A DNA stretch of 64,000 nt from Arthrobacter sp. M2012083 (GTDB taxonomy: Bacteria > Actinomycetota > Actinomycetes > Actinomycetales > Micrococcaceae). The notes below the pieces were generated by a model, which searched no databases, was not told the DNA's origin, and worked only from the letters and a program-made list of their open reading frames with translations. The first letter of the stretch is position 1, and every line of letters begins with the position of its first letter. Below are positions 434 through 31,384 of the stretch, piece after piece. The translations under genes were made by a program, and so were the position numbers. The stretch covers positions 1-64,000 of the forward strand of contig NZ_AKKK01000011.1 in NCBI RefSeq assembly GCF_000281065.1, read 5' to 3'.

Positions 434-1468
434 ATGACCCTCAGCAATGGCACCTCCGACGGAACGATCCGCTGGGGCATCCTCGGCACAGGATTTATTG
501 CCGGGCTCCAAACGCAGGACCTGAAAGAGAATGGCTTCACCGTGCAGGCCGTGGGTTCGCGTTCGGCAGAGTCCAGCAGGTCCTTCGCCGAAAAGTTCGG
601 GATAGCCACCGCCCACGGCAGCTATGAGGACTTGGTGGCGGACCCGCTGGTTGACGTGGTCTACATCGCGACGCCGCATCCGTTCCATCATGCCAACGCG
701 CTCTTGGCCCTCAACGCCGGAAAGCATGTGCTGGTGGAGAAGGCCTTCACGATGAACGCCGGCCAAGCTCAGGAGATCGTGGACCTGGCCGAAGCCAAAG
801 GCCTTGTGGCCCTGGAAGCCATGTGGACGCGCTTCCTCCCACACATGGTCCGGATCCGCGAACTCATCCAGGACGGCACCATCGGCGAGGTCCGGAAGGT
901 GGTGGCCAGCCATAATCAGAGCCTTCCCAAGGATCCTGCCCACCGGCTCAACGATCCTGCGCTCGGTGGCGGAGCGCTGCTGGACCTGGGCATCTACCCG
1001 GTCTCCTTTGCTTTCGACATTCTGGGCGCGCCTGCGTCGATCAAGGCCAGCGCCTCCACGTCTGCTACCGGCGTGGACCGACAAACGGCCGCCATCTTCG
1101 AATACCCCAACGGGGCCCATGCGATGGTTGATTGCGAACTTGACGCAGCAAGCGCCAACCGGGCCATGGTGATCGGGACCGAAGGGTGGATCGACATCGA
1201 ACACACCTGGTACAACCCGGTTCCGTTCACGGTTCATGCCGTGGATGGCACTGTTGTGGAGCGCTACGAGCAGCCCGTGAACAGCAGGGGCATGCAGTAC
1301 CAGGCGGCCGAGGTGGAACGCCTGATCCGCGCTGGCGAGACCGCAGGCACCATCCTTCCGCCGGGTGAGACCGTGGCCATCATGGCCGCCATGGACGAGA
1401 TCCGCCGCCAGATCGGCCTCAGCTACGAAGCCGACGCCGTTGTTTCAGAGGAAGATGCAACGAAATGA
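434..1468 (+). CDS. Gfo/Idh/MocA family oxidoreductase
   Basis: A 344-residue NAD(P)-dependent dehydrogenase of the glucose-fructose oxidoreductase/inositol dehydrogenase family, probably cytoplasmic. The Rossmann segment lies at the N-terminus (WGILGTGFIAG). The family EKA/EKP-type motif follows as LVEKAFTMN, and the C-terminal alpha/beta substrate domain carries GGGALLDLGIYP with the conserved Asp-x-Gly-x-Tyr pattern. Length is normal. It follows the isomerase by four bases and overlaps the next gene by ATGA (1465-1468), so the three are probably co-translated. Substrate unknown; a sugar or polyol is likely. Confidence 0.88.
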   Translation: MTLSNGTSDGTIRWGILGTGFIAGLQTQDLKENGFTVQAVGSRSAESSRSFAEKFGIATAHGSYEDLVADPLVDVVYIATPHPFHHANALLALNAGKHVLVEKAFTMNAGQAQEIVDLAEAKGLVALEAMWTRFLPHMVRIRELIQDGTIGEVRKVVASHNQSLPKDPAHRLNDPALGGGALLDLGIYPVSFAFDILGAPASIKASASTSATGVDRQTAAIFEYPNGAHAMVDCELDAASANRAMVIGTEGWIDIEHTWYNPVPFTVHAVDGTVVERYEQPVNSRGMQYQAAEVERLIRAGETAGTILPPGETVAIMAAMDEIRRQIGLSYEADAVVSEEDATK

Positions 1469-1935
1469 CTGAATCTGCCCGCCTTGCCGAACTCCGCCAG
1501 CAGGAAGAAGAGCTGGTCTTCGCAAGCTTCGATAACCACGACGCCTGGCGGCTCGGTTCTCTCATCGCCAACCACGCCATTGCTTCCGGGTTCGGGGTGG
1601 CGATCGATATCCGGCGGCACAACATTGTCCTCTTCCGCTGCGTCTTGCCCGGTTCCACCGCCGACCAGGAAGAGTGGATCCGCCGCAAGTCTGCGGCCGT
1701 GCTGCGGTTTGAGCACAGCACGGCGTTGTTGGGTGAACAGTTTGCCGAACGCAACCCCCTTGGCGGCGGGTGGCTGGCTCCGGAGGACTACACTCTCGAC
1801 GGCGGATCGTTCCCCCTCCGCGTGCGGGGCGCCGGCGTGATCGGCGCTGTCACGGTTTCCGGACTGAGCTCAGATGAGGACCACCAGATGGTGGTTGATG
1901 GCATCCGGAGTTACCTGAAGACGGTGGGGGTCTAG
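1465..1935 (+). CDS. UPF0303/heme-degrading-domain (HbpS-like) protein
   Basis: A 156-residue protein that resembles the UPF0303 group of DUF336/HbpS-fold proteins, usually annotated heme-degrading domain-containing protein. The recognisable stretches are HNIVLFRCVLPG, the NPLGGGW loop and the final DDHQMVVDGI helix. No signal peptide or membrane segment is visible. The start is set by the ATGA overlap with the dehydrogenase, so it belongs to the same sugar operon. The name is misleading in this setting: members beside sugar dehydrogenases have no proven role in heme breakdown, and the function here is unknown. Confidence 0.75.
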   Translation: MTESARLAELRQQEEELVFASFDNHDAWRLGSLIANHAIASGFGVAIDIRRHNIVLFRCVLPGSTADQEEWIRRKSAAVLRFEHSTALLGEQFAERNPLGGGWLAPEDYTLDGGSFPLRVRGAGVIGAVTVSGLSSDEDHQMVVDGIRSYLKTVGV

Positions 1936-2016
1936 GACCCGCCCAAGTCACCAGCGCCCCGGCGATGGTCTTCATGGGTAAGAGGCGTCCGAGACATAGA
2001 GTGAATCTATTTTGCC

Positions 2017-2033
2017 TAACGGAACGTCCGTTA
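2017..2033. promoter_or_regulatory. Orphan TetR-type palindrome
   Basis: TAACGGA-ACG-TCCGTTA is a perfect 7-bp inverted repeat with a 3-bp centre, typical in form of TetR-family operators. It sits in the 287-bp gap between two convergent genes (ends at 1935 and 2223), where no promoter is expected. No tetR gene is adjacent. It may be a remnant of a deleted gene or a weak hairpin. I see nothing else in 1936-2222. Confidence 0.35.
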
Positions 2034-2222
2034 TCGGCCATCGAGAGGGACGAGTAGAAGTAGGTGACAGACAGTCCGCATTCGGTTTGGCTTCGGAGAC
2101 CTGCGTGCCTCGCACCGTTGGCAGCGTAGCCCTTGCGTTGGTGACCTCCGTGGGGTTCTTGCATTCGCTGAAGGTTTTCGCGCCGCTATGGAAATGGTTC
2201 AGTCCGGGAAGAAGTCAAGCTG

Positions 2223-3401
2223 TCAGCCTGCCGCGGGCCGGGTCGCCAGCACAAGGGCAGCTCCGGTCAATGCAACGGCGATGACGATGAGGACCGCGGT
2301 TGGCAGGCCCGATCCTCTGGCTGGGGTGGCGAGAATTGGGCCCAGGCTTCCACCGATGAACATGAATGCGCCGTACCAGGCAGCTGCTCCGGCCGTTGCT
2401 CCGGGCGGGGAAGCCTCCACGATCCGTGCCACAAGTGCTGGTGCCGTTAGCGCGATGGCAGCGGCGAAGAGGACAACGCCGGTGCCGAGGACGGCAGGAT
2501 TCGGTTCTGCGAGAAGAATGGCGGCCCCACCGAGTGCGGCGAGAACGAAGCCACTAGTAGCGCGGCCCCAGCTCGAGACCCGGTGCAGAAGCCCTGACAC
2601 GGCCGTCATAAGGACCAGAGCGGAAATGCTGGCAAGACGGAGGCCCTGCAGTCCGCCGGGGAAGTTCGCGATGGCCGTCGAGGTGCTTAGTTGCAGGGCG
2701 GTGAAGAGCGCTACGTAACAGCCAAGGACCGCAGCCGTAGCAGCGTAGAGGCCCAGCAGGGGCCAGTGCTTCAGAACTCGGGGCAGGACGAAGAACGCTT
2801 GGGCAAGGGACACGGCCGTGGGTTTGTCTCGGCGTAAAAGGAATGTAAGTGAGACTGCACAGGTAAACAGCGCCACGCCGCTGCCAGCGAAAACCCCTCG
2901 CCACCCCCATGCCACGGCGGCGAGGCCGGCGAGCAACGGCATGACGAGTGCCGATGCCAGAAAGGCCGTGGTCAGAGCCGTTGTTGCAAAGGTGCGCTGG
3001 CGGCGGGGGAATTGCTGGGATACATACACGAGGGCACAGGGTGCGAACGCGGCACTTAGGAAGCCTTGCCCAGCGCGCACAGTCAACGCCACCTCGAGTG
3101 AGGTTGGGAGGGCAGTGACCATGAAGGCTGCGACGGAAGCGCCCCCCAATCCAATGACCAAGACGCGACTGACTCCGAAGCGGGTCGCGAGCGGCCCTGT
3201 CAGAAGGAACCCCACAGCGTAGGCAACGCCAAACACTGTTGTCAGCGTAGTCGCAGCTGCCGGCGTCACCCGCAGTTCCTCTCCGATCTGGTTCAGCATG
3301 CCCAAGACGACGTAGGCCTGGCCCACAGCGAGGACCCCCGTCATGGTGAAGAAGGCTACGGTTAGGCCGGTGCGGGCGCGGGAAAGTTCAGATGTTGACA
3401 C
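2223..3401 (-). CDS. MFS transporter
   Basis: A 392-residue major facilitator with about 12 hydrophobic segments and the motif-A-like loop GPLATRFGVSRV between helices 2 and 3; inner-membrane location. It resembles the AraJ/drug-efflux branch more than sugar symporters, but the substrate is unknown. I chose the GTG at 3401 because GGAAAGGAT lies just upstream and the protein then begins normally (STSELSRARTG). The frame stays open to 3560, but that extension is basic and unlike a transporter N-terminus. It is transcribed alone, convergent with the sugar operon. Confidence 0.85.
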   Translation of the reverse strand: MSTSELSRARTGLTVAFFTMTGVLAVGQAYVVLGMLNQIGEELRVTPAAATTLTTVFGVAYAVGFLLTGPLATRFGVSRVLVIGLGGASVAAFMVTALPTSLEVALTVRAGQGFLSAAFAPCALVYVSQQFPRRQRTFATTALTTAFLASALVMPLLAGLAAVAWGWRGVFAGSGVALFTCAVSLTFLLRRDKPTAVSLAQAFFVLPRVLKHWPLLGLYAATAAVLGCYVALFTALQLSTSTAIANFPGGLQGLRLASISALVLMTAVSGLLHRVSSWGRATSGFVLAALGGAAILLAEPNPAVLGTGVVLFAAAIALTAPALVARIVEASPPGATAGAAAWYGAFMFIGGSLGPILATPARGSGLPTAVLIVIAVALTGAALVLATRPAAG

Positions 3402-3705
3402 GATGGTAGATCCTTTCCAAGGACGGGTCAGGCTTGCCCAACCGCTCTTTCCCAGCCGCCCCAGACGAAACAGGTCGCAGTGCACCCTGTACGGAGCGGT
3501 CTGGTTGGTGCCGAGGCGAACCGGGGCCCCGGCCTCTGCCTGAAACGGTGCCGCTTTCACGAGACAGCTAATCGATGGAATTGAGCAGGCGGAAATCGGT
3601 TTGCCCTGCTCCGGTTGTGCGGTCCGCGTCTTTCAATACGCTCGTCAGGATTAACTGCAAACAGCACGCTGCAAGACGTTGTGGGCGTTCATCGACGAGC
3701 CTGTT
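3402..3705. other. Intergenic gap upstream of MFS gene
   Basis: Leader and promoter region of the leftward MFS gene, bounded on the right by the decayed CoA-lyase gene. I see a Shine-Dalgarno at the MFS start but no clear hexamers, operator or further gene. Confidence 0.4.
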
Positions 3706-4579
3706 CTATCGTCCCCGGCGGATTCCATTCGGCGGGGTTTTGGGTGTTACAGGACGGTTGATCATTTCACCGACTGTCTGGTTGGCAGCCTGTGAGCCGG
3801 GACTGCTGATGTCCCTACACCAACCCTTCAGCACCGGAGGCGAATGCTTCTGCCACGACTGGTACTTGGACAGGATGGATGCAGAGCATACCGCCGAAGC
3901 CAAAGTGACGTGACAGGGTTGCCTCCGAGCTCATCTTTCCGATGTCGGCGATGCTGACGGATGGAGAATCCAAAGGCGCGGCGATCCCGGCTGTTTTTGA
4001 CGCCACCACCAGAACATTCCGAGCGTAATCAAGAAAGCGATAGTCGCTCGTGCTTGTGTCAATATCCAGGGCGTAGTCGATGGCTCCGAAAGCAAGCCGG
4101 GTGACGCCAGGAATCTTTGCCAAGGCATGGGCGTCCATGAGGCCAGCCGCAGATTCAACACCCAAAACGACGGCCAACCGAAGTTTCCTGCAGCGGCGCA
4201 CCAGATCTCGCAGCCCCTCGCTGTCTTCGGCTTTCGGCACCACCAGTCCGAGTAAGCCACCAGGCCAAGCCGGGGTTGCCCGCAACAGGCTTTCGACTTC
4301 GCGCTCATAGGACGCTGAACCTAGCGGGTTGACGCGCACCAATACGTTAACCTCAGGCTTGAGGCCTGCGATCTTCTTTTGAATCTCAGACAGAGCAGCA
4401 GCTTTGGAGGCTGGGGCTACGGATTCTTCCAGATCGAAAATGACGACGTCAGCACCCGAAGTGGCGGCTTTTCCGAACCGTTCTGACCGATCGCCGGGAA
4501 CAAAAAGGGCGGTGACTGCGGTCGCGACCTCACACGCGCTTGAGTCGCTCAGGCGCAGCCTCTCCGATTGGCGGATCAT
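3706..4579 (-). pseudogene. CoA-ester lyase (CitE/Ccl-like), frameshifted copy
   Basis: A degenerate paralogue of the intact lyase at 10200-11075. From ATG 4579 it runs 254 codons with the family segments TALFVPGDRSERF, VIFDLEESVAP, LVRVNPLGSASYE, GVESAAGLMDA and LAFGAIDYALDID. It then stops at 3815, about 37 residues short. The missing tail continues in another frame near 3748-3774, where VGEMINRPV matches DGEMIDRPV of the intact copy. One frameshift therefore explains the short product. The frame upstream of 4579 (to 4741) is not a real N-terminus, because that DNA encodes the MaoC remnant in another frame. Some activity of the 254-residue product cannot be excluded. Confidence 0.72.
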
Positions 4580-4691
4580 TCGCCGACCACTGGAGGTGGG
4601 AAACTTAAATTTGGTCTGGATGCATCCGCTGATTGCACGAAACGCTGTCGGTAGACCAGGAACGTCGGACGAAAAGATGCACTGATCAATG
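4576..4691 (-). pseudogene. MaoC dehydratase remnant (C-terminus only)
   Basis: Read leftward, the DNA encodes FRPTFLVYRQRFVQSADASR and then a stop. This aligns with the C-terminus YRRTFMVYRQGFLPSVESAR of the intact MaoC protein at 11072-11629. The stop overlaps the lyase ATG by the same ATGA arrangement as in the intact module. The N-terminal ~140 codons, including the hot-dog fold catalytic part, are gone. What is left joins almost directly to the promoter element at 4719, which indicates a large internal deletion. Confidence 0.7.
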
Positions 4692-4718
4692 TATTCACCC
4701 CTTCGTGAAATGATGACC

Positions 4719-4829
4719 CAATATATTTGTGTTTTATCCACTCTAAGGGCAGTTAGGAAGCGAATTCAAGGGCTTTTCGGCTCCATCAGCCCCGCGACAA
4801 GAATCCAGATCGTAACTCCAATATATTTT
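4719..4829. promoter_or_regulatory. Relict divergent promoter with paired AATATATT elements
   Basis: AATATATT occurs at 4720-4727 and 4820-4827, 100 bp apart, between the MaoC remnant and the acyl-CoA dehydrogenase remnant. The intact module has the same octamer at 11669-11676 and 11768-11775, 99 bp apart, between the same two genes. The arrangement survives although the flanking genes have decayed. They are candidate -10 elements overlapped by a regulator site. Confidence 0.5.
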
Positions 4830-4867
4830 GTTGCAACCCATGTCAAGGCTTGGGAGGGCACCTACAC

Positions 4868-5430
4868 CTGCCATGCGGCCCGGATTGAGCAGCTTAGAGG
4901 AGGCCCTAGGGCTGCGTGTGCGCTGTTGTGGATGAGTATTAGCGGGAGGCGGTCCGTAATCCCGGTGCCCGCATGAGCTTGTTGACAGGCTGACCAAAGA
5001 AGGTCTCGTCGTCGCATTGATTTCGCCCGAGCGCGCCGGTCTCGGCATGGGACACGCCGCGGCCGGCGTTAACCATGGAGGAGATCAACGAGGTCAGTAG
5101 CTACTCAGCGGCGTGCACGCGCGGATGTACACCATCGGCGCCCTCCTTTGCCACGGCCACGCCCCAGAAGAACACCTACTTACCGGCGATTGCCAAACAA
5201 TCCCAGGTTTCAAGAATTTTCGATGACCGAGGACACTGCCGGTTCGGATGCCACCAGCAGCGAAACCGCGGCTGTTAGAGAGGGCATCGACTACGCCATT
5301 GCCGGACACAAAGAGTTCAATCAGCCGACTACACGCATCGGGCCTCGCGCCTGCCTGGCCCGCACATCGACCAAATACGAGGCAGGAGGCGGGATGCGCG
5401 AACCGACGCTGTTCCTCGTGGACGGGCCCC
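4868..5430 (+). pseudogene. Acyl-CoA dehydrogenase, degenerate 5' half
   Basis: Relict of the gene intact at 11815-12984. The start codon position holds CTG (4868), about 39 bp past the AATATATT element, as in the intact copy. The series then reads IEQLRGGPR, DEY-stop-RE (Trp to TAG), DRLTKEGLVVALISPE, MEEIN, MYTIGALLCHGHA, NTYLPAIA, TEDTAGSDATS and LFLVDG, spread over several frames. At least two frameshifts, one nonsense codon and loss of everything after about residue 200 make a product impossible. Short open frames in this stretch should not be annotated as genes. Confidence 0.75.
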
Positions 5431-5536
5431 AGTGTCGCCATCTCCCGTCAATGTGGGAACGGGCTAGGCCACGGTCTGCTAACCCAGAACCTGGAGGACT
5501 CCCCCGCGTTGCCGATCTCCCTTATCGGCGGTTGGA

Positions 5537-5845
5537 TCACAGGGCTTGGCCCTTGGGCGCGACGACCGCGTCCAAAAGTCCCGGGAAGCGTTTGTCTATG
5601 TCGGCCTTGCGGAGGGTCATTGTAATCACCCTGCCCTCCCGGGTTTGTTGCAGAAGCCCGCTTTCGCGAAGAACGCGCCAGTGATGGCTCGCTGTCGACT
5701 GGGGCATGTGCGGCAGAGCTGTCGTGCAATTGAGGTGTTCGCCTTGATTGAGTCGTCTTACGACTTCCAGGCGGATGGGGTTGCCGAGGGCGCTAAGGAC
5801 GTCGGTGAGGGCGAAGTCTTCGGGGTCCGGGTGGATAAGCTGCAC
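5537..5845 (-). CDS. ArsR-family (winged HTH) transcriptional regulator
   Basis: A 102-residue repressor-type protein. The segments LSALGNPIRLEVVRRL, MPQSTASHHWRVLRESGLLQQ (recognition helix) and EGRVITMTLRKADI (wing) are those of the ArsR/HTH_20 family. No metal-binding Cys cluster is present, so metal sensing is unlikely. I chose GTG 5845, which puts the start just inside the gap shared with the divergent DUF1330 gene; the frame is open further upstream but would run through that gene. The usual arrangement suggests it represses its neighbour and itself. Its 3' end faces the acyl-CoA dehydrogenase pseudogene. Confidence 0.82.
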   Translation of the reverse strand: MQLIHPDPEDFALTDVLSALGNPIRLEVVRRLNQGEHLNCTTALPHMPQSTASHHWRVLRESGLLQQTREGRVITMTLRKADIDKRFPGLLDAVVAPKGQAL

Positions 5846-5890
5846 ACTTCGAGTATAGTCGATGAGTACGATAGTTCGATTTTTTTCGAA
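5846..5890. promoter_or_regulatory. ArsR/DUF1330 divergent promoter with tandem repeat
   Basis: The 45-bp gap contains two imperfect direct copies, GAGTATAGTCGAT followed by GAGTACGATAGTTCGAT (5851-5880). Repeats this close to both starts are the expected place for the ArsR-type regulator to bind. There is no room for two independent promoters. Confidence 0.4.
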
Positions 5891-6205
5891 ATGAGGAGGG
5901 TGTGCCCTATCGCCGCCTATATCAGCATTGATATGACCCCGACCGATCCTGCCGCAATTGCACTCTACGAGCAGAATGTGGGTCCGATACTGGCCCAGTA
6001 CGGTGGAGAACTCATCGCTCGAGACGAGAAGCCGATTTATGCCGAGGGCGATCGGAAGCCGAGCCTGGCCGTGATCATTCGTTTCGACAACAAAGAGGCC
6101 TTCCGACGGTTTTACGATTCCGCCGAATACACGCCTTGGCGTGAATTCCGGATGGCTCATGCGCAAGAGAGCGCCGTCGTCATTGAAGGTATCGACGCAG
6201 CCTGA
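5891..6205 (+). CDS. DUF1330 domain-containing protein
   Basis: A 104-residue cytoplasmic protein with the ferredoxin-like alpha/beta fold typical of DUF1330: AAYISIDMTPTDPAAIALYEQNVGPILAQ, then GGELIARDEKP and the C-terminal FRRFYDSAEYTPWREFR. Function is unknown; members often sit beside ArsR/MarR regulators, as here. The start is uncertain: ATG 5891 is followed at once by AGGAGG, so translation may begin a few codons later, for example GTG 5900. It converges on the amidohydrolase and ends before a shared terminator. Confidence 0.8.
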   Translation: MRRVCPIAAYISIDMTPTDPAAIALYEQNVGPILAQYGGELIARDEKPIYAEGDRKPSLAVIIRFDNKEAFRRFYDSAEYTPWREFRMAHAQESAVVIEGIDAA

Positions 6206-6285
6206 GCCTAGAGGGCCGGATTTCGTTCTATGAGGCATGACCGCTGTGGATGGTTCTCGAACCGATCTGGATACGTGGCAGCAAG

Positions 6286-6326
6286 GAGGGGCAGGCTACT
6301 TCGCTTTGAAAAGTAGCCTGCCCCTC
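6286..6326. terminator. Bidirectional hairpin terminator
   Basis: A perfect 16-bp stem (GAGGGGCAGGCTACTT and its complement) with a 9-base loop lies between the convergent DUF1330 and amidohydrolase genes. Confidence 0.8.
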
Positions 6327-6337
6327 GCTCGGCACGC

Positions 6338-7732
6338 TTAGTTAGCCTGAAGGATACGGTCCCGTGACTCGAGAATTTCAGTCCTCAGACTCGGCATGTT
6401 GACGCCCACGAGTTCACGGTTCCATTTGAGTGCTTCGCCGGCAACGAAAACAGCTTCGATGTTGCGAGGATCAGCACCAAGCACAATTGTGCCGACCGCG
6501 TCATTGAGGGGCAGGTTATTGACGTCCTCGGCGGCGATGATGAGCAGGTCAGCCTGCTTGCCGGGGGTCAGCGACCCAGTGACATCGCCGAGCCCGTTGC
6601 TCCGCGCCCCTTGGACCGTTGCGAAATCGAGGACATCGCGTGCTGTGATGCGATGCGGCTCGGCAGTCGTGCCGTAGGCCGCGTTGACGGCGAGCATCCG
6701 TTGGACGGAGAGGAGCGTGCGCATCTGGGTAAACATGTCACTGGCCAGGGCGACTTCGACGTCGATGCTGAGGGCGGGACGGATGCCTGCGCCCAGGGCC
6801 TCGTTGACGGCGGGTATTGCGGATTCGAGGCCGATTTGGGCGTCGGAGGAGGGCGCCAGCGACACCGTTGTACCGGCGGCTCCCATGGCGTCCCAGGCCT
6901 CGTCAGTTAGTCCGGTGCAGTGGATGAGGGTCATGCGGTCATTCAGGATGCCGGACGTTTTCCAGTCAAGGATCGCTCGTGAGGAGGCCTGACCGAACAC
7001 TGCGTCGACGCTTACCCATAAGTCCAGCTCCCGTGCGGTGTTTGCCAGACTCTGTCCGTAGGCTATTTCTGGCCCTGCGATTTCGTCGGTGGCGAGTGCG
7101 GCCAATCGCAGGGTCAGCAGTTGGTCCGGTGAGTTGAAATAGCGTTCCTTGATCCTTTTCAGGTCACTAGGCCACTGATGGTTCCAGTTGCCGAAGTGTG
7201 GGCCCATTGAGGCATGGACTCCGCGGATGCGGGTGTCCGCAAGGGCTTGAATGGCTGCGTCCGAATGTTCGGCCGTTCGGGAGTTGTGGGAGAAGTCCAG
7301 CATGCAGGTGATGCCGCTGTCGAGCGCGGTGAGGGCGGCCAATTTTGTCCCGGCGTACATGTCTGCGGGCTGGTAGAGCGGTGCAATATCGTTGAGCGTG
7401 CTCATGACGTATTCTCCGAGGTCGTTGACATCAGGCATGATGCGCCGGAGCTGCGTCTCCCAGGCATGGCGGTGTGAGTCGACAAAGCCTGGGGACACAA
7501 TCGCGCCTGCGGTGTCGATGACTATGGCGCTGTCTGCCGCGCCCAGGGAACGCAGATCGGGACCTACGTCAATGATTCTTGAGCCTTCGATGAGCACGTC
7601 GCCGCGTTGGAGGTCGCCGATGCTCCGGTCCATGCTTACAACGGCTCCGCCTGTGAGTAGCACTCGGCGGAGCGGGTCACCAGAGGTGGCAGCGAGGATT
7701 TCTCCAAGCGCGGCGCGCGGGGTTGTGGTCAT
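6338..7732 (-). CDS. Amidohydrolase family protein (ATZ/TRZ-type deaminase/hydrolase)
   Basis: A 464-residue cytoplasmic metal-dependent hydrolase. The family metal motif HxH is in PGFVDSHRHAWET (His87, His89); later candidate ligands are GVHASMGPHFG, LIHCTGL and ALSIDVEVALASD. The flanking beta-sandwich segments (LLTGGAVVSMD at the start, TPGKQADLLII near the end) are typical. The ATZ/TRZ branch deaminates or dechlorinates heterocycles such as guanine, cytosine or s-triazines. The substrate here is not decided by sequence. ATG 7732 has a strong AAGGAGAAG; the longer open frame to 7903 is unlikely. The FCD regulator upstream may control it. Confidence 0.85.
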   Translation of the reverse strand: MTTTPRAALGEILAATSGDPLRRVLLTGGAVVSMDRSIGDLQRGDVLIEGSRIIDVGPDLRSLGAADSAIVIDTAGAIVSPGFVDSHRHAWETQLRRIMPDVNDLGEYVMSTLNDIAPLYQPADMYAGTKLAALTALDSGITCMLDFSHNSRTAEHSDAAIQALADTRIRGVHASMGPHFGNWNHQWPSDLKRIKERYFNSPDQLLTLRLAALATDEIAGPEIAYGQSLANTARELDLWVSVDAVFGQASSRAILDWKTSGILNDRMTLIHCTGLTDEAWDAMGAAGTTVSLAPSSDAQIGLESAIPAVNEALGAGIRPALSIDVEVALASDMFTQMRTLLSVQRMLAVNAAYGTTAEPHRITARDVLDFATVQGARSNGLGDVTGSLTPGKQADLLIIAAEDVNNLPLNDAVGTIVLGADPRNIEAVFVAGEALKWNRELVGVNMPSLRTEILESRDRILQAN

Positions 7733-8271
7733 GGTGCTTCTCCTTCTTGAACGGGTTTTGCAGATGTCCTGCCGACGTTGAGGGTCGCTTCTTTGTATTC
7801 GCCAGATTCGTCGGGGCCAGATAGGTTGTTGACGCTGACGGACTCTCTGGTTCTTCGACTGTAGAAGGAAGTAAACCGAACGGCGTGGGTGCAGCACACC
7901 CACGCCGGTCGCGGCAAAAACTGATCCTCAGGTAAGACGCCAACCGCGCATGCAGAATTGGAAGCCCAGGATCCTTGCGGATCCACGGACAGGCGGCACC
8001 TTGCGCATCCGGTATCCACGGCATAAGCGCCGAACCGGCAGGGGCCGGGGGGCACGGGGGCACGGCAATCGTGCCCTACCGTCGCCGCAGGCAGCTGGTC
8101 CTCGGCACTTTATCCGTTGCTGCCTGAAGCACCTCTGCCGATGCCTGAGCCATTACGGGCCTCGGATTGAGGGCTTCATGGGGTTCCGACCGTTGGGCGG
8201 GAAAGACTGCGTGGATTGGACGCACCTCGTGGCTCGAGTGGCCTCCCCCTCGACCGGAGTTCATGCTCAGG
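7733..8271. other. 539-bp gap with a GC-rich hairpin
   Basis: No convincing gene on either strand; the open frames here lack homology-like features and good ribosome sites. It contains an 11-bp perfect hairpin at 7881-7907 (CGGCGTGGGTG, loop CAGCA). The hairpin would lie about 150 bases into the leader of the amidohydrolase mRNA if the promoter is beyond it. There is no T-run on either side, so it is not a textbook terminator. Confidence 0.4.
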
Positions 8272-8970
8272 TCAGGCGGATGTCAGATCGTCGACCGGGG
8301 CGGCTTTGGAGACGCGTTCATCAAAATGTGTGGCCAGGAGTTCTCCGGCATGAACAATATGGGAGACCATCGCCGCTCTCGTTTTTTCGGAGTCGCCAGT
8401 TCGTATGCCGTTCAGTAGTTCTTCATGGTCATCGACAGTGGCCTGCGGCCACCCTGGGATGGTCGAGTAGAACTGGCGGGGGACGTACCGGGTGATGAGG
8501 CTCAGCGCCCAGATGATCTTCCTGGATCCGGCCATCTTGTTGATGTGCCTGTGGAAGGCATGGTTCTTCTCCTCCAGCAGTGCATGGTCATTGCGGCGGG
8601 CGGCTGCAATGAGCTCATGGTGAAGGGCTTCGAGTTCAGCGAGATCGGCGGAGGCTGGGCTGGCCGCTGCCCGGGCCGCCAACTCCCCTGCGATGAGGGC
8701 CTGCACACGAAAGAGGTCTCGGATGTCCTGCCCGGTCAGGGGTGCTACCTGGAAGCCACGACGTGGCACCAACTCCAGGAAGCCCTCCACGCGCAGTGCT
8801 TGAAGGGCTTCTCGGGCAGGCGTTGTCGAGATGCTGAGCGCTTGCCCTACAGTTTCGGGGCGCACAGTGGAGCCGGGCGTCAACTTCCCGGACATAATCA
8901 GGCCGCGGACGTGGGCCGCAGCCTCATCACTGAGTTGCCGACGGCCGCGGTCGTCGCTGGTGGTGCCCAT
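8272..8970 (-). CDS. GntR/FadR-type regulator with FCD domain
   Basis: A 232-residue regulator. The N-terminal winged helix includes LTPGSTVRPETVGQALSISTTPAREALQALRVEGFLEL and RRGFQV. The C-terminal all-helical FCD ligand domain has the typical His/Asp metal positions in the HHELIAAARRND and FHRHIN stretches. FCD regulators usually sense carboxylic acids and repress adjacent catabolic genes. It lies between the amidohydrolase and the CoA-transferase module, all on the same strand, and is the best candidate to bind the divergent promoter at 11667-11777. Effector unknown. Confidence 0.87.
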   Translation of the reverse strand: MGTTSDDRGRRQLSDEAAAHVRGLIMSGKLTPGSTVRPETVGQALSISTTPAREALQALRVEGFLELVPRRGFQVAPLTGQDIRDLFRVQALIAGELAARAAASPASADLAELEALHHELIAAARRNDHALLEEKNHAFHRHINKMAGSRKIIWALSLITRYVPRQFYSTIPGWPQATVDDHEELLNGIRTGDSEKTRAAMVSHIVHAGELLATHFDERVSKAAPVDDLTSA

Positions 8971-9045
8971 ACGTCCTTTTCTCCTGACCTTCCCGCTAAG
9001 AATATGGCATTTCCTTTGGTGGATGGTACTCGGCTGGGCGGTAGA

Positions 9046-10203
9046 TCAGTGGTTGCCCACCGGGGCGGGCAGCCCCAGTTCCGCGAGAATGCTTTCGGTA
9101 TGCTCGCCAAGTGCAGGTACCGGTCCCATGCTGTAATCCATCTCCTTGAAGGTTACGGGAGGGATAAGTGTACGCAGAGGCCCTTCTGGGGAATCCACAT
9201 CGCGCCATCGCTTCCTGGCCAGAAGCTGAGGATGATCGGAGAATCCATGCATGTCACGAAGCTCCGCGTTGGCAATGGATGCTGCATCGAGACGTTCAAC
9301 GACGACTTTGGTCTTCAGCGACGCCAGAATGAGGTCGATCTCGTCATGAAGGGCTGCTCGATTCTCAACGCGCGCCGCATTCCCAGCGAACTGCGGAGCC
9401 TTTCCAAGATCGGCATTCTGCAGGACATCACGGCAGAACGCCTCCCATTCGCGTTCGTTCTGAATGCCGAAGAATACTGTTCCGTCCGAAGTCTCAAAGG
9501 GTCCGTAAGGAGCGATGCTCGCGTGATGCGCCCCGCTCCGTGAGGGAGGTGCGCCACCGTATTCGGCGAAGAAATATGGTTGGCTCATCCATTCGCCCAT
9601 TGCCTCCAACATGGAGATCTCCAGGACATCTCCGCGGTCCGTTGAGGCTCTGTGGAGCAGCGCCGTCAGAATCCCGGAGTAGGCATACATTCCTGCGCAG
9701 ATATCAGCGATGGAGATACCGACCTTGGCAGGAGCCTGTTCAGTTCCGGTAACACTCATGAGCCCGGACTCGCACTGCACGAGCATGTCATAGGCCTTTT
9801 TGTTCTCGTATGGTCCGCCGCGTCCATAGCCTGAAATCGAGACATGAATGAGCCTCGGGTTGAGTGCAAGGGCATCAGCTGGGCCCATTCCGAGCCGTTC
9901 CACGGCTCCCGGGGCGAGGTTCTGCACGAGGACGTCGGCCTGGGAAACCAGAGTCTGCAGGATCCCCTGGCCATGGTCGGACTTGAGGTCCACGACAATA
10001 CTTTCCTTGCCGCGGTTAAGCCATACGAAATAACTGGCCATGCCGTGAACTTTTTTATCGTATCCGCGGGCGAAATCTCCGGTGTCCCGTTCGACCTTGA
10101 TCACACGGGCCCCTAGATCCGCCAGCTGACGGGTCGCAAACGGCGCAGCCACAGCCTGCTCCAGTGATAGTACGGTTATTCCCTCCAAAGGAAGCCGGCT
10201 CAT
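9046..10203 (-). CDS. CaiB/BaiF CoA-transferase (candidate itaconate CoA-transferase)
   Basis: A 385-residue family III CoA-transferase, which moves CoA between carboxylic acids through an aspartyl intermediate. The likely catalytic Asp is D167 in GISIADICAGMYAYSG. Other family marks are VLSLEQAVAAPFATRQLADLGARVIKVER, NLAPGAVERLGMG and ISGYGRGGPY. Its start overlaps the lyase stop by ATGA, so it is the last gene of a MaoC-lyase-transferase operon. That set matches ich-ccl-ict of Pseudomonas itaconate degradation; a mesaconate- or methylsuccinate-type acid is an alternative substrate. Substrate is inferred from context only. Confidence 0.85.
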   Translation of the reverse strand: MSRLPLEGITVLSLEQAVAAPFATRQLADLGARVIKVERDTGDFARGYDKKVHGMASYFVWLNRGKESIVVDLKSDHGQGILQTLVSQADVLVQNLAPGAVERLGMGPADALALNPRLIHVSISGYGRGGPYENKKAYDMLVQCESGLMSVTGTEQAPAKVGISIADICAGMYAYSGILTALLHRASTDRGDVLEISMLEAMGEWMSQPYFFAEYGGAPPSRSGAHHASIAPYGPFETSDGTVFFGIQNEREWEAFCRDVLQNADLGKAPQFAGNAARVENRAALHDEIDLILASLKTKVVVERLDAASIANAELRDMHGFSDHPQLLARKRWRDVDSPEGPLRTLIPPVTFKEMDYSMGPVPALGEHTESILAELGLPAPVGNH

Positions 10204-11075
10204 GTTCTGTCCTTTTCAACGCGTGCCATTATCAAGCGGGCACGTTCAATCACCGGTCGATCAATCATCTCTCCATCCACTTGGATAGCCCCATCGGCCG
10301 AGGAAACGATTGTTTGTGCCCAGCGCACGGCCTCAGCGTCCGGCAAGAAAGCGGCCGACACCACCGGCACTTGCGCGGGATGGATACATAGCTTTCCACC
10401 AAATCCGAAACCATACGAAAGCCTGGCCGCGGCTTCCACTTGCCCAATGTCCTTGATGGTGGTTGCTGGAGAATCCAATGGCGCCGCGATGCCCGCCGCC
10501 CGGGATGCAAGCACAAGGACGCTGCGGGCATAGTCAAGGAACCTGTCCTCGCGGCCGGCATGAATGTCGAGTGCATAGTCGATGGCGCCGAAAGCGAGGC
10601 GTGTGACACCGGGCACCTTGGCCAAGGCTGGAGCATCCAACACCCCTGCGGCAGACTCGATAAGAGGGACGAAGGCGAGCCCCAGCGAGGCACACCGCTG
10701 GGAAAGCTCCCTGAGCTCGGGGCTGTCTGCTGCTTTCGGGACCATCAAGCCGAGCAGACCGCGGCAGGACAAATTCGCCAACTCGTAAAGCTGCGCGATT
10801 TCCTCCTCGTATGACGCTGAACCAACTGCATTGACGCGTACGAGAGCCCTCCACTGCCTGTTTTGGATACGCAATGCTGCTACGGTCGCTGCGAGAGCGT
10901 CTGCTTTTGCAGGCGGCGCTACAGCATCTTCCAAGTCAATGATGACGATGTCCGCACCGGCTAGAGCTGCCTTCTCGAAGCGCTCGGGCCGGTCGCCGGG
11001 AACGAATAAAGCCGTGGCGGCGGAGGCGACCTTCTGGATCGAGGATCCCCTTGGCAGGGTTTGCAAACCTGTCAT
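10200..11075 (-). CDS. CoA-ester lyase, HpcH/HpaI family (candidate citramalyl-CoA lyase)
   Basis: A 291-residue TIM-barrel lyase of the citrate lyase beta/CitE-like family. It shows FVPGDRPERFEKAA, the acidic pair in VIIDLEDAVAP (about residues 45-54), RVNAVGSASYEEE, PLIESAAGVLDA (metal Glu) and LAFGAIDYALDI. Members cleave (S)-citramalyl-CoA, malyl-CoA or similar 3-hydroxyacyl-CoAs to acetyl-CoA and an oxoacid. ATGA overlaps at both ends tie it to MaoC and CaiB. A decayed copy of this gene sits at 3706-4579. The citramalyl-CoA role follows from the itaconate-like neighbours and is not shown directly. Confidence 0.85.
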   Translation of the reverse strand: MTGLQTLPRGSSIQKVASAATALFVPGDRPERFEKAALAGADIVIIDLEDAVAPPAKADALAATVAALRIQNRQWRALVRVNAVGSASYEEEIAQLYELANLSCRGLLGLMVPKAADSPELRELSQRCASLGLAFVPLIESAAGVLDAPALAKVPGVTRLAFGAIDYALDIHAGREDRFLDYARSVLVLASRAAGIAAPLDSPATTIKDIGQVEAAARLSYGFGFGGKLCIHPAQVPVVSAAFLPDAEAVRWAQTIVSSADGAIQVDGEMIDRPVIERARLIMARVEKDRT

Positions 11076-11629
11076 TTGGGCTCCACCACCGGCAATGAGG
11101 CCTCGTCCGGCCGCGCAGATTCGACAGATGGCAGAAAACCTTGCCGATAAACCATGAAGGTCCGGCGGTAGCTGATGACGACTGCCCCGTTCTGGTTGTA
11201 ACCCTCAGTGGCCACGCTGACCAAGCCCAACTGGGGGCGGGACCTCGATTCACGAAGTGCAAGAACTTTAGACCGGGAGTAGATAGTGTCGCCCTCATAT
11301 ACCGGGTTTGGCATCCTGACCTCGTCCCACCCCATGTTCGCGAAGACGTTCATGGATAGATCCATGGTGGACTGACCCGTCACCAGGGCCAGAGTGAACG
11401 CTGAATTGACCAAGGGCCGTGCAAACTCTGTTTTCGACGCGAAGTTCACGTCCACGTGGGTCTTCGACACGTTCTGGGTCGTCAACGTGAACCACTGGTT
11501 GTCCGTCTGGGTCACCGTCTTTCCGAACGGGTGGTAGTAGATGTCCCCGACGGCAAAGTCTTCAAATAGCCTCCCCGTCCAGCCGGGCACTTCTCGGCCG
11601 ACCGAGGTGTTGGCAACAGTTTCCGTCAT
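11072..11629 (-). CDS. MaoC-family dehydratase (candidate itaconyl-CoA hydratase)
   Basis: A 185-residue hot-dog-fold hydratase. GRLFEDFAVGDIYYHPFGKTVTQTDNQWFTLTTQN and NPVYEGDTIYSRSKVL are typical of MaoC proteins; the hydratase residues should lie in the DNQWFTLTTQNVSKTHVD stretch. ATG 11629 is preceded by AGGAGG at proper spacing, so the 12 extra codons upstream are left out. It is the first gene of the leftward operon, divergent from the acyl-CoA dehydrogenase. In the itaconate route the equivalent enzyme adds water to itaconyl-CoA to give citramalyl-CoA, which suits the lyase that follows. Only a C-terminal remnant survives in the decayed copy. Confidence 0.85.
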   Translation of the reverse strand: MTETVANTSVGREVPGWTGRLFEDFAVGDIYYHPFGKTVTQTDNQWFTLTTQNVSKTHVDVNFASKTEFARPLVNSAFTLALVTGQSTMDLSMNVFANMGWDEVRMPNPVYEGDTIYSRSKVLALRESRSRPQLGLVSVATEGYNQNGAVVISYRRTFMVYRQGFLPSVESARPDEASLPVVEPK

Positions 11630-11666
11630 GGATATATCCTCCTGAGTATTATTAGTCGCTTCCAAG

Positions 11667-11777
11667 ATAATATATTGACGATCGACATCAGGCTACCCCT
11701 GTTATCTCTCTACCCTCAAAGATTTCTGGGTAAGTTGAGTTACTTGCCTCACGGATGAGTAACCCGCAATATATTAT
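11667..11777. promoter_or_regulatory. Divergent promoter with mirror-image ATAATATATTG/CAATATATTAT elements
   Basis: ATAATATATTG (11667-11677) and its exact reverse complement CAATATATTAT (11767-11777) each end 38 bases from the start codon of their gene (MaoC 11629, dehydrogenase 11815). Each can serve as a -10 region. Between them, GTTACT and AGTAAC form an inverted repeat (11739-11763) that could be an operator, for example for the GntR/FCD protein. The same paired octamer is kept in the decayed module. Confidence 0.6.
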
Positions 11778-11814
11778 GTAGCAGCCACTTCAGCTAACAC
11801 TACGAGGAGCAAAG

Positions 11815-12984
11815 ATGCCATCCGTTACAAGCAAAGAGATTCAGCAGCTACGGCAGAAGACCCGTGAGTTGTGCGCGAAGTTCCCCGACGAGTACTGGCG
11901 CGAAACGGATTTGAACCGCCGCTATCCGCAGGAGTTCGTGGACATCCTGACAAAGGAAGGACTGTTGGCCGCCCTGATACCTACGGAGTACGGAGGCTTG
12001 GGCTTGGGCCTTACCGAAGCCAGCGTGATCATGGAGGAAATCAACCGATCCGGCGGTCATTCCGCCGCCTGCCACGCACAGATGTATACGATGGGGGCTT
12101 TGCTCCGACACGGAAACGATGCTCAGAAGAACGCGTATCTTCCCGCCATCGCAACCGGTGATCTGCGGCTACAGGCCTTCTCCATTACGGAAGACGCTGC
12201 CGGTTCAGACACCACCAGTATCCAGACGGCTGCAGTGGAACACGGCGATGAGTACCTCATCACCGGCCACAAGAGCTGGACAAGCCGCATCGATGAATCC
12301 GATCTTGCCTTCGTTCTCGCCAGGACATCCGAGAAGGCCCCTGAGGATAGGACTCATGGCCTCACACTGTTCCTCGTGGACCTGCGACAGGTGCGAGCAG
12401 AGCAGCCGGAGACACTGAAGGTCGTCAAAGTCCGGACCATGTTCAACTACGCCACCAACCAGGTCTTCTACCAAGGCATGCGAGTTCCAAAAACTGCGGT
12501 CATCGGAAAGGTAGGCCAAGGCTTCCGTTACGTCCTCGACGGGTGGAACGCCGAGCGCATCCTGCTGGCATCTGAAGCGATAGGCGATGGCTATTGGTTC
12601 ACCTCCCGCGCCGTGGAGTACGCAAACAGCCGCCGCGTGTTTGGCCGCCAGATCGGAACCAACCAAGGCGTCCAGTTCCCCATCACGGACGCCTATATGA
12701 AGATTCGGGCTGCAGACTTGATGCGATATGAGGCGGCCCGACTCTTTGATGCGGGTGAGCCATGCGGCGCCGAAGCCAATATGGCCAAGCACCTCGCTTC
12801 AGAGGCCAGTTGGGCCGCAGGCAACGCATGCCTGGACACCCACGGCGGCTACGGGTTTGTCGACGAATACGACGTGGAACGTAAGTTCCGCGAAACCCGT
12901 ATGTTTCAAGTGGCGCCGGTCAACAACAACATGATCAAGGCGTTTGTGGCCACTAAGGTACTGGGGCTCCCGCGCTCATACTGA
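11815..12984 (+). CDS. Acyl-CoA dehydrogenase
   Basis: A 389-residue FAD flavoprotein that introduces an alpha-beta double bond into an acyl-CoA. Seen in order: the N-terminal helical domain, the QAFSITEDAAGSDTTS flavin/substrate loop, the middle beta domain (FLVDLRQV), and the C-terminal helical domain with RRVFGRQIGTNQGVQFPI and DTHGGYGFVDEYDVERKFRE. It has a good AGGAG site. Next to CoA-transferase, MaoC and CitE-like genes it may oxidise a branched dicarboxylyl-CoA such as methylsuccinyl-CoA. The Pseudomonas itaconate cluster also carries such a gene. Substrate unproven. Confidence 0.88.
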   Translation: MPSVTSKEIQQLRQKTRELCAKFPDEYWRETDLNRRYPQEFVDILTKEGLLAALIPTEYGGLGLGLTEASVIMEEINRSGGHSAACHAQMYTMGALLRHGNDAQKNAYLPAIATGDLRLQAFSITEDAAGSDTTSIQTAAVEHGDEYLITGHKSWTSRIDESDLAFVLARTSEKAPEDRTHGLTLFLVDLRQVRAEQPETLKVVKVRTMFNYATNQVFYQGMRVPKTAVIGKVGQGFRYVLDGWNAERILLASEAIGDGYWFTSRAVEYANSRRVFGRQIGTNQGVQFPITDAYMKIRAADLMRYEAARLFDAGEPCGAEANMAKHLASEASWAAGNACLDTHGGYGFVDEYDVERKFRETRMFQVAPVNNNMIKAFVATKVLGLPRSY

Positions 12985-13115
12985 GCAAATCTCGGGCCTC
13001 AACAGCTTTAGGGGCTCGACCAAAAGGGGGGTGGGCCACGGGCGCCGACCAACGGTAGGCGCGCCGCCAAACTGTCACGACGAGCAAACCGAAGACTTGG
13101 AGAAGGGATAACAGG

Positions 13116-13328
13116 ATGGCCCTCCATCCCCATGGCTGCTGGCAGCCCGTAGTTGGCGAATGGGTCCAGATTAAACGCTTCGGTCGCGTCATCGACGAAG
13201 GCCGTGTTGAGGCTGTAACCAGCGACGACCAGATGCTCTGGCTTGCTGCCCTGGGTGTGAACTCACGGAGGCTGATCATTCGCGAGCAGGGAATGGACTT
13301 GTGGCTTGACTACAAATGGGACAGCTGA
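13116..13328 (+). CDS. Small hypothetical protein
   Basis: A 70-residue protein, not recognised. It has an SH3-like look: a GEWVQIKRFGRVIDEGRVEAV stretch of short beta-strands, then MLWLAALGVNSRRLIIREQGMDLWLDYKW. Two features favour a real gene: an AGAAGGG ribosome site before ATG 13116, and an end just ahead of a GC-rich inverted repeat (GCGGCCGCA near 13342, TGCGGCCGC near 13376) between it and the opposing gene. No signal peptide or membrane segment. No function can be assigned. Confidence 0.55.
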   Translation: MALHPHGCWQPVVGEWVQIKRFGRVIDEGRVEAVTSDDQMLWLAALGVNSRRLIIREQGMDLWLDYKWDS

Positions 13329-13412
13329 GCACACCTTCCTTGCGGCCGCAGCACCGATCACCTGCTGGTTTTCGGGTGCGGCCGCTCGGGCTGCCAGGCT
13401 CGGAGCACAGAT

Positions 13413-17182: not shown

Positions 17183-18571
17183 TTAGCGACTGCCTATTGC
17201 TGCGGAAACGACATCGGTGACATCAACGGCAGAGTCCAGTTGGTCGATGCATTGGAGCAGAAGATCCAGTTCCTGCTGTGACAAGTCAGTTTCCGAGCGC
17301 ATCCGCTGCGCATTCGCGGCTACGTGGGGCAGTGACCACGACAGCAGGGAATCCGAGTCATCAATCGCATCGTCCAGAACAGAACCCTCATACAGGCGCA
17401 CTGTCGCGGATGCTGTTTTTCCAGGGCGGCCTTCTTCGGCAACCAAGTGCATCCTCCCCATCAAGTCAGCGACCTTCTGATCTTCGAAATTCGACAGGGA
17501 TTGCAGCTTGATGTCTCCGTGGACTAAACCAGTAGCGAATGCAAACCTGGCGTTCATGAGTGTCTGGGCAGTTGTATGGAATGGTCCGTCAGCAGCCATC
17601 CCCGGGTACTCGGCCTCCCGCTTGTTCATGCGGAGAGTAATCGACTCAACCGTTTCAGCGCGCAGGCCCTGGGACCGCAACTTCAGTGCCAGCAGCGCAG
17701 GGGCTTGGTTGAAGGCACACACCGGAAATGGTTTGAACGTAACCCCAAGAATGTTCCACGTGTCTCCAAGACCGAGCGCAAGGGTGTCGAGGTCTCCTCT
17801 GGCAAAACATTCCAGGAACCCGGCCGGTGCTTCGAAGGCTGTGTCGGACCCTGCGGCACCCTTGGCGGCCAAGCTGGCTGCGAGGTAGCCGTTCATGGCA
17901 GCTTTTGCAGGCTGAAAACGCCACTCGTCCGTGCCGGCACCGAATGATTCGGATGTGCCTCCGGAACCGGCCGCTGCAATGGACAACGCGGACGCCATCT
18001 GATCGCCGTTCAGACCCAGTATCCTTCCGACAGCTGCAGCGGCCGCTACAGGACCGAAAACTGCGGTAGCCCGGAAGGGCGGCGTCGTACGCTCTGTTAT
18101 CTGGGAAGAAAGCGCCGTTCCGACCTCGTAGCCTGCCAAGACGGCATTCATGAACGTTACTCCGTCGCACTTTGTCGACTCAGCGGCGGCCAGGGCAGCC
18201 GGCAAAACAGTCAATCCCGGATGAAAAGTGCCATGTGTGTCCTCCTGTGCCCTGGCGTGGAACAGCGCACCGTTGATGAACGCCGCCACCGGTGCTGGAT
18301 GGTACTTCCCGCTGACCAGTGAACGCGACCAGCGGGCCCGCGGTTCACTTTCCCCGGTTCCCCATGCATCCTCCGCCACCCTTCCAAACGGTGACGTCAG
18401 TCCGGCAGCCCCTACGACAGTGGCATGGATGATGCATCCGCGGACCCGTTCCCCCACGGAAACGGGCGCGTCACCGATACGTACACTGCAGGCAAAGCTT
18501 GCAAGCCGTTCAACGATGGTTGCCGTGATGGTCGGGGCCTCTTGCTGAAGCGACGTTGCTTCCTGCCACAT
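17183..18571 (-). CDS. MmgE/PrpD family protein
   Basis: A 462-residue member of the 2-methylcitrate dehydratase-like family; members dehydrate or isomerise C5-C7 tricarboxylic and related acids. It shows VRGCIIHATVVGAAGLTSPFG, FHARAQEDTHGTFHPGLTVLPAALAAAE (the conserved HPG segment) and AGTDEWRFQPAKAAMNGYLAASLAAKG. ATG 18571 follows GAGGAG; eight further codons upstream are excluded. It is divergent from the MHS transporter operon across a 398-bp region with GTCCGTAC sites. A MmgE/PrpD gene also accompanies ict-ich-ccl in Pseudomonas, which links it weakly to the module at 9-13 kb. Confidence 0.85.
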   Translation of the reverse strand: MWQEATSLQQEAPTITATIVERLASFACSVRIGDAPVSVGERVRGCIIHATVVGAAGLTSPFGRVAEDAWGTGESEPRARWSRSLVSGKYHPAPVAAFINGALFHARAQEDTHGTFHPGLTVLPAALAAAESTKCDGVTFMNAVLAGYEVGTALSSQITERTTPPFRATAVFGPVAAAAAVGRILGLNGDQMASALSIAAAGSGGTSESFGAGTDEWRFQPAKAAMNGYLAASLAAKGAAGSDTAFEAPAGFLECFARGDLDTLALGLGDTWNILGVTFKPFPVCAFNQAPALLALKLRSQGLRAETVESITLRMNKREAEYPGMAADGPFHTTAQTLMNARFAFATGLVHGDIKLQSLSNFEDQKVADLMGRMHLVAEEGRPGKTASATVRLYEGSVLDDAIDDSDSLLSWSLPHVAANAQRMRSETDLSQQELDLLLQCIDQLDSAVDVTDVVSAAIGSR

Positions 18572-18655
18572 CTCAGAACTCCTCGGTTTGTGCATCTACT
18601 GCCACAGGGTGCAGGCACAGAGCCTGCAGCCCCTCAGCAAAGATGCCGTTAAATC

Positions 18656-27391: not shown

Positions 27392-27641
27392 CTCCGCACG
27401 TCACCCTGCCCGGTTGGCCCATTACACGAGGACTGTAAGCACCGGCCCAATCGGGTCTGCAGCTGTCTCCGTCCGGGGGGTAACCCAAACCAGTTGACTC
27501 TAAGTGCCAGCTAGCCTCCACATTCTGACGTTCACTGGCATGGCCCTAGAGACCGGCGTACCTTGATACCAGACCTACGGGGACGCCTTGTAACAACTTG
27601 TAGCCCTACGCTCACTGGTAGTCGTTATGGAGGGATCAGGG

Positions 27642-30352: not shown

Positions 30353-31384
30353 ATGCCCAGCCCCGAACGCCCCCTCCGCAAGCTTGGATTTCTGACTATT
30401 GGCCTCTTCGACCCAGCCGACCCTGCGGCTGGCCACCGGTCGACATTGGAGATCATCGAACTCGGCGAGCAGTTGGGATTCGACAGCGCCTGGTTACGCC
30501 ACCGTCACTTGCAGTTCGGCATCTCCTCCCCTGTCGCGGTGATGGCTGCCGCAAGCCAGCGCACGTCCAGGATTGAGCTCGGCACCGCCGTGACTCCGCT
30601 GGGTTGGGAAAACCCCCTGCGGCTGGCAGAGGACCTGGCCACGGTGGATCTGCTCGCCGGGGGACGGATCAATCCCGGCCTGAGCGTGGGTGAACCGATG
30701 CATTACGACACCGTGAAGCACCATCTATACGCCGATTCCTGGGACGTCGAAGACTTCAGCTATGACCGCGTAGACCGGTTCGCCCGCCTGGTCGCGGGCG
30801 AAAAAGTGAGGGACTTCTCCGGCAAGCAAGGCGTTGTGGAGGAATTCTCCAACCGGGTGGAGCCGCACTCCCCGGGACTGCGCAGCCGTCTTTGGTACGG
30901 GGCAGGCAGTATGAAGTCTGCCGTTTGGGCCGGTGAAAACGGCTTCAACCTGTTGTCCAGCAGTGTGATTTTTCCCGACAAGGATCAAGAACCGGACTTT
31001 GCAAAGGTCCAGCAATCGCAGATTCGGGCGTACCGCGACGCCGCCCACGCGTCCGGAAACACGGCCCGGGCTTCGCAAGGCTTAGTGGTCATCCCCACTG
31101 ATTCCGCTTCCAGCGCCCAGCGCGAGAAGTACCAGCGGTACGTCGATGAACGGACTCCCCGCACGAGGGCTCCGCAGGGGCCGAAGGGCATGCTGTTCGC
31201 CCGGGATCTGATCGGCACCAGCGATGAAATTGCCCGGCAACTTTACGCCCATGCGGGTTTCCAGGAAGTGGACGAGGTGGCGTTCGCACTGCCCTTCAGC
31301 TTCGACCACGAGGACTACGTGCAGATCCTCACCGACATTGCGACAAAATTGGGCCCAGCCTTGGGGTGGAAACCGGTCGCATAG
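30353..31384 (+). CDS. LLM class flavin-dependent oxidoreductase
   Basis: A 343-residue luciferase-like TIM-barrel monooxygenase using reduced FMN or F420: FLTIGLFDPADPAAGHRSTLEIIELGEQLGFDSAWLRHRH, RIELGTAVTPLGWENPLRLAEDLATVDLLAGGRINPGLSVG, and LIGTSDEIARQLYAHAGFQEVDEVAFALPF near the end. AAGGAATGCC precedes the start. It is likely a cytoplasmic enzyme oxidising small organic or sulfur compounds. It is convergent with the response regulator, 19 bp away, and not in an obvious operon. Confidence 0.88.
   Translation: MPSPERPLRKLGFLTIGLFDPADPAAGHRSTLEIIELGEQLGFDSAWLRHRHLQFGISSPVAVMAAASQRTSRIELGTAVTPLGWENPLRLAEDLATVDLLAGGRINPGLSVGEPMHYDTVKHHLYADSWDVEDFSYDRVDRFARLVAGEKVRDFSGKQGVVEEFSNRVEPHSPGLRSRLWYGAGSMKSAVWAGENGFNLLSSSVIFPDKDQEPDFAKVQQSQIRAYRDAAHASGNTARASQGLVVIPTDSASSAQREKYQRYVDERTPRTRAPQGPKGMLFARDLIGTSDEIARQLYAHAGFQEVDEVAFALPFSFDHEDYVQILTDIATKLGPALGWKPVA

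Follow-up and report, generated by a model that had tools for sequence, protein, structure and literature searches.

A decayed second copy of a divergent acyl-CoA dehydrogenase/MaoC–CitE unit in Arthrobacter sp. M2012083 that keeps its paired promoter boxes

The 64,000-nucleotide stretch of the Arthrobacter sp. M2012083 genome analyzed here, called the window below, carries at 3706–5438 the remnants of three genes: a citrate-lyase-like CoA lyase (CitE), the tail of a MaoC hydratase and an acyl-CoA dehydrogenase (ACAD). These remnants, which we call the twin, are colinear with the intact genes of its neighbour at 10200–12984, about 6 kb away (Table 1). When the proteins of the intact module were run by tblastn against the 64-kb window, CitE residues 11–250 matched 4543–3821 on the reverse strand (60% identity, E 8e-82), MaoC residues 159–194 matched 4695–4588 on the same strand (42% over 36 residues, E 2e-4) and ACAD residues 36–194 matched 4963–5438 on the forward strand in frames 1 and 3 (44% and 48%, E 2e-22). 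A third ACAD piece was found in frame 2, so that ACAD pieces occur in all three frames. The local score of the MaoC tail was 74, compared with a maximum of 46 among 1000 shuffles of the tail, and the weak CitE lid remnant gave E values of 1.0 in the window and 0.04 in the region.

Table 1. Features of the twin, of the intact module and of their promoters (window positions).
Feature	Position	Strand	Remarks
MFS transporter beside the twin	2223..3407	-	
Weak twin CitE lid remnant	3706..3822	-	other frame; aligned 3822–3748; 48% over 25 aa
Twin CitE (HpcH/HpaI aldolase) frame	3815..4579	-	254 codons with an intact barrel; the C-terminal lid lies in another frame
MaoC tail	4576..4695	-	39 codons plus stop; overlaps CitE at ATGA
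AATATATT box, MaoC side, twin promoter	4720..4727		
AATATATT box, ACAD side, twin promoter	4820..4827		
ACAD remnant	4868..5438	+	truncated at about residue 194; good alignment only from about 4930
GntR (FCD) regulator of the intact module	8272..8970	-	
Family III CoA-transferase	9046..10203	-	no counterpart in the twin
Intact CitE	10200..11075	-	
Intact MaoC hydratase	11072..11629	-	probable ATG start; ORF reaches 11665 from TTG
AATATATT box, MaoC side, intact promoter	11669..11676		
AATATATT box, ACAD side, intact promoter	11768..11775		
Intact ACAD	11815..12984	+	

Alignment with the intact copy at the DNA level gave two colinear blocks, with 433 of 692 and 267 of 424 nucleotides identical (63% each), and the gene order and strands of the twin are those of 10200–12984. 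A preliminary description of this DNA had listed the three remnants in this order and on these strands, with a MaoC gene reduced to its last ≈38 codons and a surviving ATGA junction between MaoC and CitE, and the present analysis agrees on each point: the MaoC stop lies at 4578–4576 and the CitE ATG at 4579–4577. Its statement that this is not a recent tandem copy is likewise in line with the high divergence. The twin is thus a real, degraded and highly divergent colinear relative of the divergent ACAD/MaoC–CitE unit.

The lesions ascribed to the twin could also be located. By reading of the sequence, CTG occupies the ACAD start position (4868–4870) and a tryptophan codon has become TAG (4940–4942). 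The CitE frame ends near 3820, with the weak lid remnant in another frame; the preliminary description had placed a frameshift near 3815. Frameshifts in ACAD were represented by seven indels that are not a multiple of three relative to the gene of genome G158, and by 7–10 relative to six comparators (G numbers designate genomes and L numbers loci). The ACAD remnant stops at about residue 194 of 389, its second half being gone.

The supposition that the twin genes had decayed evenly did not hold, CitE being less decayed than ACAD. Decay was measured at nucleotide columns, restricted to codon positions 1 and 2, that are invariant in the other 19 common rows. Changes were found at 14 of 184 such sites in the twin CitE and at 46 of 251 (18%) in the twin ACAD (Fisher p 0.001); in the same test, the working neighbour had changed at 11 of 195 sites in CitE and 6 of 256 in ACAD. 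Among invariant residues, 9 of 75 were lost in the twin CitE (66 kept) and 36 of 115 in the twin ACAD (p 0.003), while the control rows lost at most four in CitE and three in ACAD in the same test. The differences between the twin CitE and its neighbour were concentrated at third positions (0.32/0.26/0.67 for codon positions 1/2/3). For the twin ACAD and G158, the corresponding values were 0.21/0.20/0.42, compared with 0.04/0.01/0.38 for the functional pair G158–G045, indicating that roughly 20% random change had been added. In the CitE barrel, signs of decay are only mild, a grading based on the closeness of the neighbour's 11 of 195 to the twin's 14 of 184; ACAD shows a strong loss of constraint.

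The assembly is a draft of 67 contigs, which could favor a sequencing or assembly artefact in a genuine intact second module. We regard this as highly improbable, given the many independent lesions, the 18% change at otherwise invariant ACAD sites, the large MaoC deletion and the truncation of ACAD. Even less credible is the notion that the resemblance amounts to common family motifs with no genuine colinear twin, which is refuted by the tblastn E-values, the colinear DNA alignment, the shared ATGA junction and a shared pair of rare promoter boxes.

The preliminary description had further presented the twin as a whole module with the same spacing as the intact one, and here the data disagree. 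The CoA-transferase and GntR genes both come after CitE in the intact copy, but nothing corresponding to them was found next to the twin: the best tblastn match for a CoA-transferase remnant in 3400–6300 had an E of 0.22 and that for a GntR remnant near the twin an E of 1.8, neither above chance. The CitE ATG and the ACAD start are about 290 bp apart in the twin and 740 bp apart in the intact copy, corresponding to a loss of about 150 MaoC codons. Together, the missing remnants and the shortened spacing identify the twin as the remnant of a partial, divergent ACAD/MaoC–CitE unit without the rest of the module. The lack of a CoA-transferase may be original rather than a loss, because a close CoA-transferase next to CitE is missing in at least 7 of the 20 modules fetched (G141, G149, G168, G191, G051, G147 and G060); in G090 and G064, there is only a 53% relative some kilobases off.

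In malyl-CoA lyases, according to PMC3832036, the C-terminal lid closes the active site of the neighbouring subunit and supplies a presumed catalytic Asp. The Asp of the lid motif GxM[IV]D, which presumably corresponds to this residue, is present in all 19 other CitE rows; in the shifted frame of the twin, the motif reads GEMIN, with Asn in place of Asp. Since the frame stops before the lid and the motif Asp is replaced, the twin CitE is probably dead. A working truncated lyase whose partners alone had died would account for the 254-codon open frame with its ATG start, for a complete Pfam PF03328 (HpcH/HpaI) match on par with that of the intact CitE (106 and 105 bits, respectively), for the bias of the divergence to third positions and for a number of invariant-site changes near that of the working neighbour. 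We nevertheless consider it very unlikely, given the out-of-frame lid with its missing Asp, the role of the lid in malyl-CoA lyases and the nine invariant residues lost; the open frame itself is weak evidence, as 35% of runs retain it when neutral change of 10% is simulated. K228M in the twin CitE was considered as a diagnostic change and dropped, because Leu occupies this position in a solved acyl-CoA lyase (9nzb).

The relationships of the twin genes were examined in trees. For ACAD, DNA was compared over 505–514 shared columns in 21 rows. The twin ACAD was nearest to G158 (72%), followed by G036, G045 and G169, and lowest to its own neighbour (63%). It grouped with these four genes with support of 98/93 (96/91 on transversions only), and one of the four was nearest to it in 98% of column bootstraps; forcing the twin and neighbour ACAD together was not rejected (AU p 0.08 and 0.26). 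In contrast, two CitE protein trees placed the twin with its neighbour (support 91/88 and 91/87), each of the two genes on a long branch, and forcing the twin CitE with G158, G036, G169 and G171 was not rejected either (p 0.14). The neighbour was nearest to the twin CitE in 69% of bootstraps and G141 in 25%; the MaoC tail scored highest with the neighbour (74, next 69). G045, which has no MaoC or CitE at its module, was used in the ACAD tree only, the broken CitE of G030 was left out of the CitE tree, and G032, G125, G094, G187 and G237 were absent from both trees; for G090 and G064, the CitE rows represent relocated copies. The outgroups in one CitE tree were 5 of 79 loci from a genome contig scan with the twin CitE, which returned relatives of at most 41%. 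The ACAD half and the CitE/MaoC half thus give different, individually soft signals: a sister relationship of each twin gene to that of the neighbour is opposed by ACAD and weakly favored by CitE and the MaoC tail. Recombination close to the promoter between these halves, in one copy or the other, might conceivably account for the two signals.

Copy numbers were compared among 206 genomes of the genus. Two CitE matches at E ≤ 1e-45 were found only in the window's own genome, the broken second CitE of G090 falling below this limit. ACAD at E ≤ 1e-120 was present in 25 other genomes, as one copy in 24 of them; the two copies in G094 are paralogues with 52–53% identity. No relative with two intact modules was seen among the 206, nor was a close donor, the best other matches being 60% for CitE protein and 72% for ACAD DNA. 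A plasmid origin was considered and rejected: in a tblastn search of 72,556 plasmid records, the best of the 1686 with an ACAD match was 60.5% identical. Flanking repeats were rejected as well, since 1900–13400 yielded only one inverted pair (26 nt, 77%) and one direct pair (27 nt, 81%), the latter being the homology between the ACAD copies.

On balance, we favor, with some reservation, separate acquisition over local duplication: the second copy, now inactivated, would be a xenologue derived from a different lineage of the genus. The distance between the two copies is roughly that between orthologues from different species, and the twin ACAD groups with genes of other species; both observations argue for a separate arrival. 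The main competing explanation, which we consider rather unlikely but worth retaining, is that the ACAD–MaoC–CitE unit of the neighbour was duplicated long ago in an ancestor, in tandem or as a segment, and that one copy then decayed; the ACAD signal would then be long-branch noise or the result of a later recombination of the intact ACAD. The joining of twin and neighbour in the CitE tree, the position of the neighbour as nearest relative for CitE and the MaoC tail, the adjacency of the copies and the spacing of their promoter boxes (100 bp in the twin and 99 bp in the neighbour, compared with 108–110 in G158, G169, G036 and G045) would all fit such a duplication. It is countered by the twin ACAD being farthest from the neighbour among the 21 rows, by the absence of two close copies in all 25 other ACAD-bearing genomes (the two in G094 are distant) and by third-position differences of 0.63–0.67, which are near saturation. 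The preliminary description had left the choice between an old duplication and a parallel acquisition of a complete cassette followed by loss; the loss stands, the completeness does not, and the data lean to acquisition.

If the twin was indeed acquired separately, a second ACAD/MaoC–CitE copy would have arrived together with its two-box control region and been redundant beside one full module. MaoC would then have lost about 150 codons, and ACAD its second half while gathering frameshifts; CitE may have been protected for longer, its lid presumably being the last part lost.

The genomic setting was surveyed in 12 fetched loci around a conserved UPF0303 gene (window 1465–1935). In three of the 12 (L182, at 33 bp, L193 and L184), no more than 0.8 kb separates UPF0303 from the luciferase-like gene that the window has at 30353, and in L187, L188 and L192 no more than about 0.8 kb separates it from the response-regulator gene that the window has at 31404; the other six loci have 2–8 kb of other genes in between or are without these neighbours. 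Because the flanking genes are close neighbours in some relatives, about 28 kb of the window (≈1936–30350), including both copies, is likely to be an inserted or much enlarged stretch, a putative catabolic island. Nearly the same gene order, from GntR at 8272 to a debranching-enzyme gene at 27627, is found in G126. The MFS gene beside the twin has its sole other match in the genus at E ≤ 1e-60 (206 genomes) in G126 (42%), where it lies some 2 kb away from the ACAD module.

Both divergent promoters contain a pair of AATATATT boxes. These are the only four exact sites in the window, which also holds four sites one base off; 60 first-order random sequences of the same make-up had a mean of 0.02 sites. 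The whole 4.63-Mb genome has five. The fifth (L195, G000:C9:57046) is unpaired and lies just 3′ of an IclR-like open frame and near a transketolase-like one, both labels coming from sequence reading alone. An exact pair with a gap of 83–112 bp occurs in 18 of the 206 genomes, and in 17 of these, including the window's own, it is beside the ACAD start; in the remaining one, G007, no ACAD match reached E ≤ 1e-120 and no GntR match reached E ≤ 1e-40. In most modules of the genus, the spacing is 96–110 bp. In L162 (G045, 5458–8739), ACAD diverges directly from CaiB–GntR with no MaoC or CitE in between, and the box pair is kept.

The occurrence of the pair followed that of the GntR regulator in the 25 other genomes with ACAD at E ≤ 1e-120. 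A GntR relative of at least 64% is present in 18 of them, 16 of which have the exact pair; the two exceptions are G194, with one exact box, and G030, with a pair at 86 bp. In the other seven, GntR matches were 44–45% in three and none at E ≤ 1e-40 in four, and the pair is absent from all seven. This distribution, a correlation rather than proof since the counts come from related and hence non-independent genomes, marks the AATATATT pair as the probable two-box operator of GntR 8272–8970. A sigma-70 promoter scan found none in either control region, and no paper joining AATATATT with GntR was found in the open-access literature. All 16 bases of the twin boxes are unchanged, for which the chance would be 0.04 at the ACAD rate of change and 0.28 at the CitE rate. 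The boxes might conceivably bind the GntR of the intact module, so that the remnant would persist as a regulatory sponge, a decoy tuning induction; we give this little credence.

The composition of the modules resembles the itaconate/methylsuccinate degradation cluster (ich, mcd, mmgE, ict, ccl) of Cupriavidus and Pseudomonas (PMC12290011): both have a family III CoA-transferase, an ACAD, a MaoC, a CitE-type lyase and a nearby MmgE/PrpD gene, here at 17183–18595, 4.2 kb beyond the intact ACAD. The arrangement here differs in its divergent layout with a GntR regulator and in the twin's lack of an adjoining CoA-transferase. The NCBIfam equivalog cut-offs were not reached either for RipB_Ich (intact MaoC 177 of 340 bits) or for RipC_Ccl (intact CitE 148 and twin CitE 105 of 375 bits). 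As MaoC and CitE are well below these curated cut-offs, membership is not claimed. Literature searches found no paper for itaconate, Arthrobacter and CoA-transferase, and nothing on topic for methylsuccinate and Arthrobacter. Closer parallels are the ACAD/MaoC–CitE(–CaiB) modules of the genus (G158, G036, G126 and others), which have the same genes in a divergent layout and mostly share the paired AATATATT boxes and a GntR relative. Each has one intact ACAD copy, whereas the twin is a second, broken one. The G090 module (L157, 1387–10299) is similar in that its CitE is broken, matching over about 50 residues before it breaks, with an intact relative about 7 kb away; however, only CitE is doubled there, ACAD and MaoC being open frames, and G090 is an independent case of lyase turnover.

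As a case of gene loss, the twin is an ordinary decayed extra copy; what is new is that it keeps both AATATATT boxes of its divergent promoter. Its value lies in this preserved pair together with the graded decay. It offers a snapshot of the dismantling of a redundant catabolic unit inside an apparent genomic island, in which ACAD and MaoC seem to have gone before the lyase. Should the decoy idea prove true, a dead operon would be serving as a regulatory sponge for the GntR of the intact module. The control region kept by a dead copy directs attention to a probable two-box operator; the GntR protein that it would serve is an uncharacterised regulator, in this genus, of a pathway for CoA-dependent degradation. 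The same region may also hint at the way in which the intact genes are induced.
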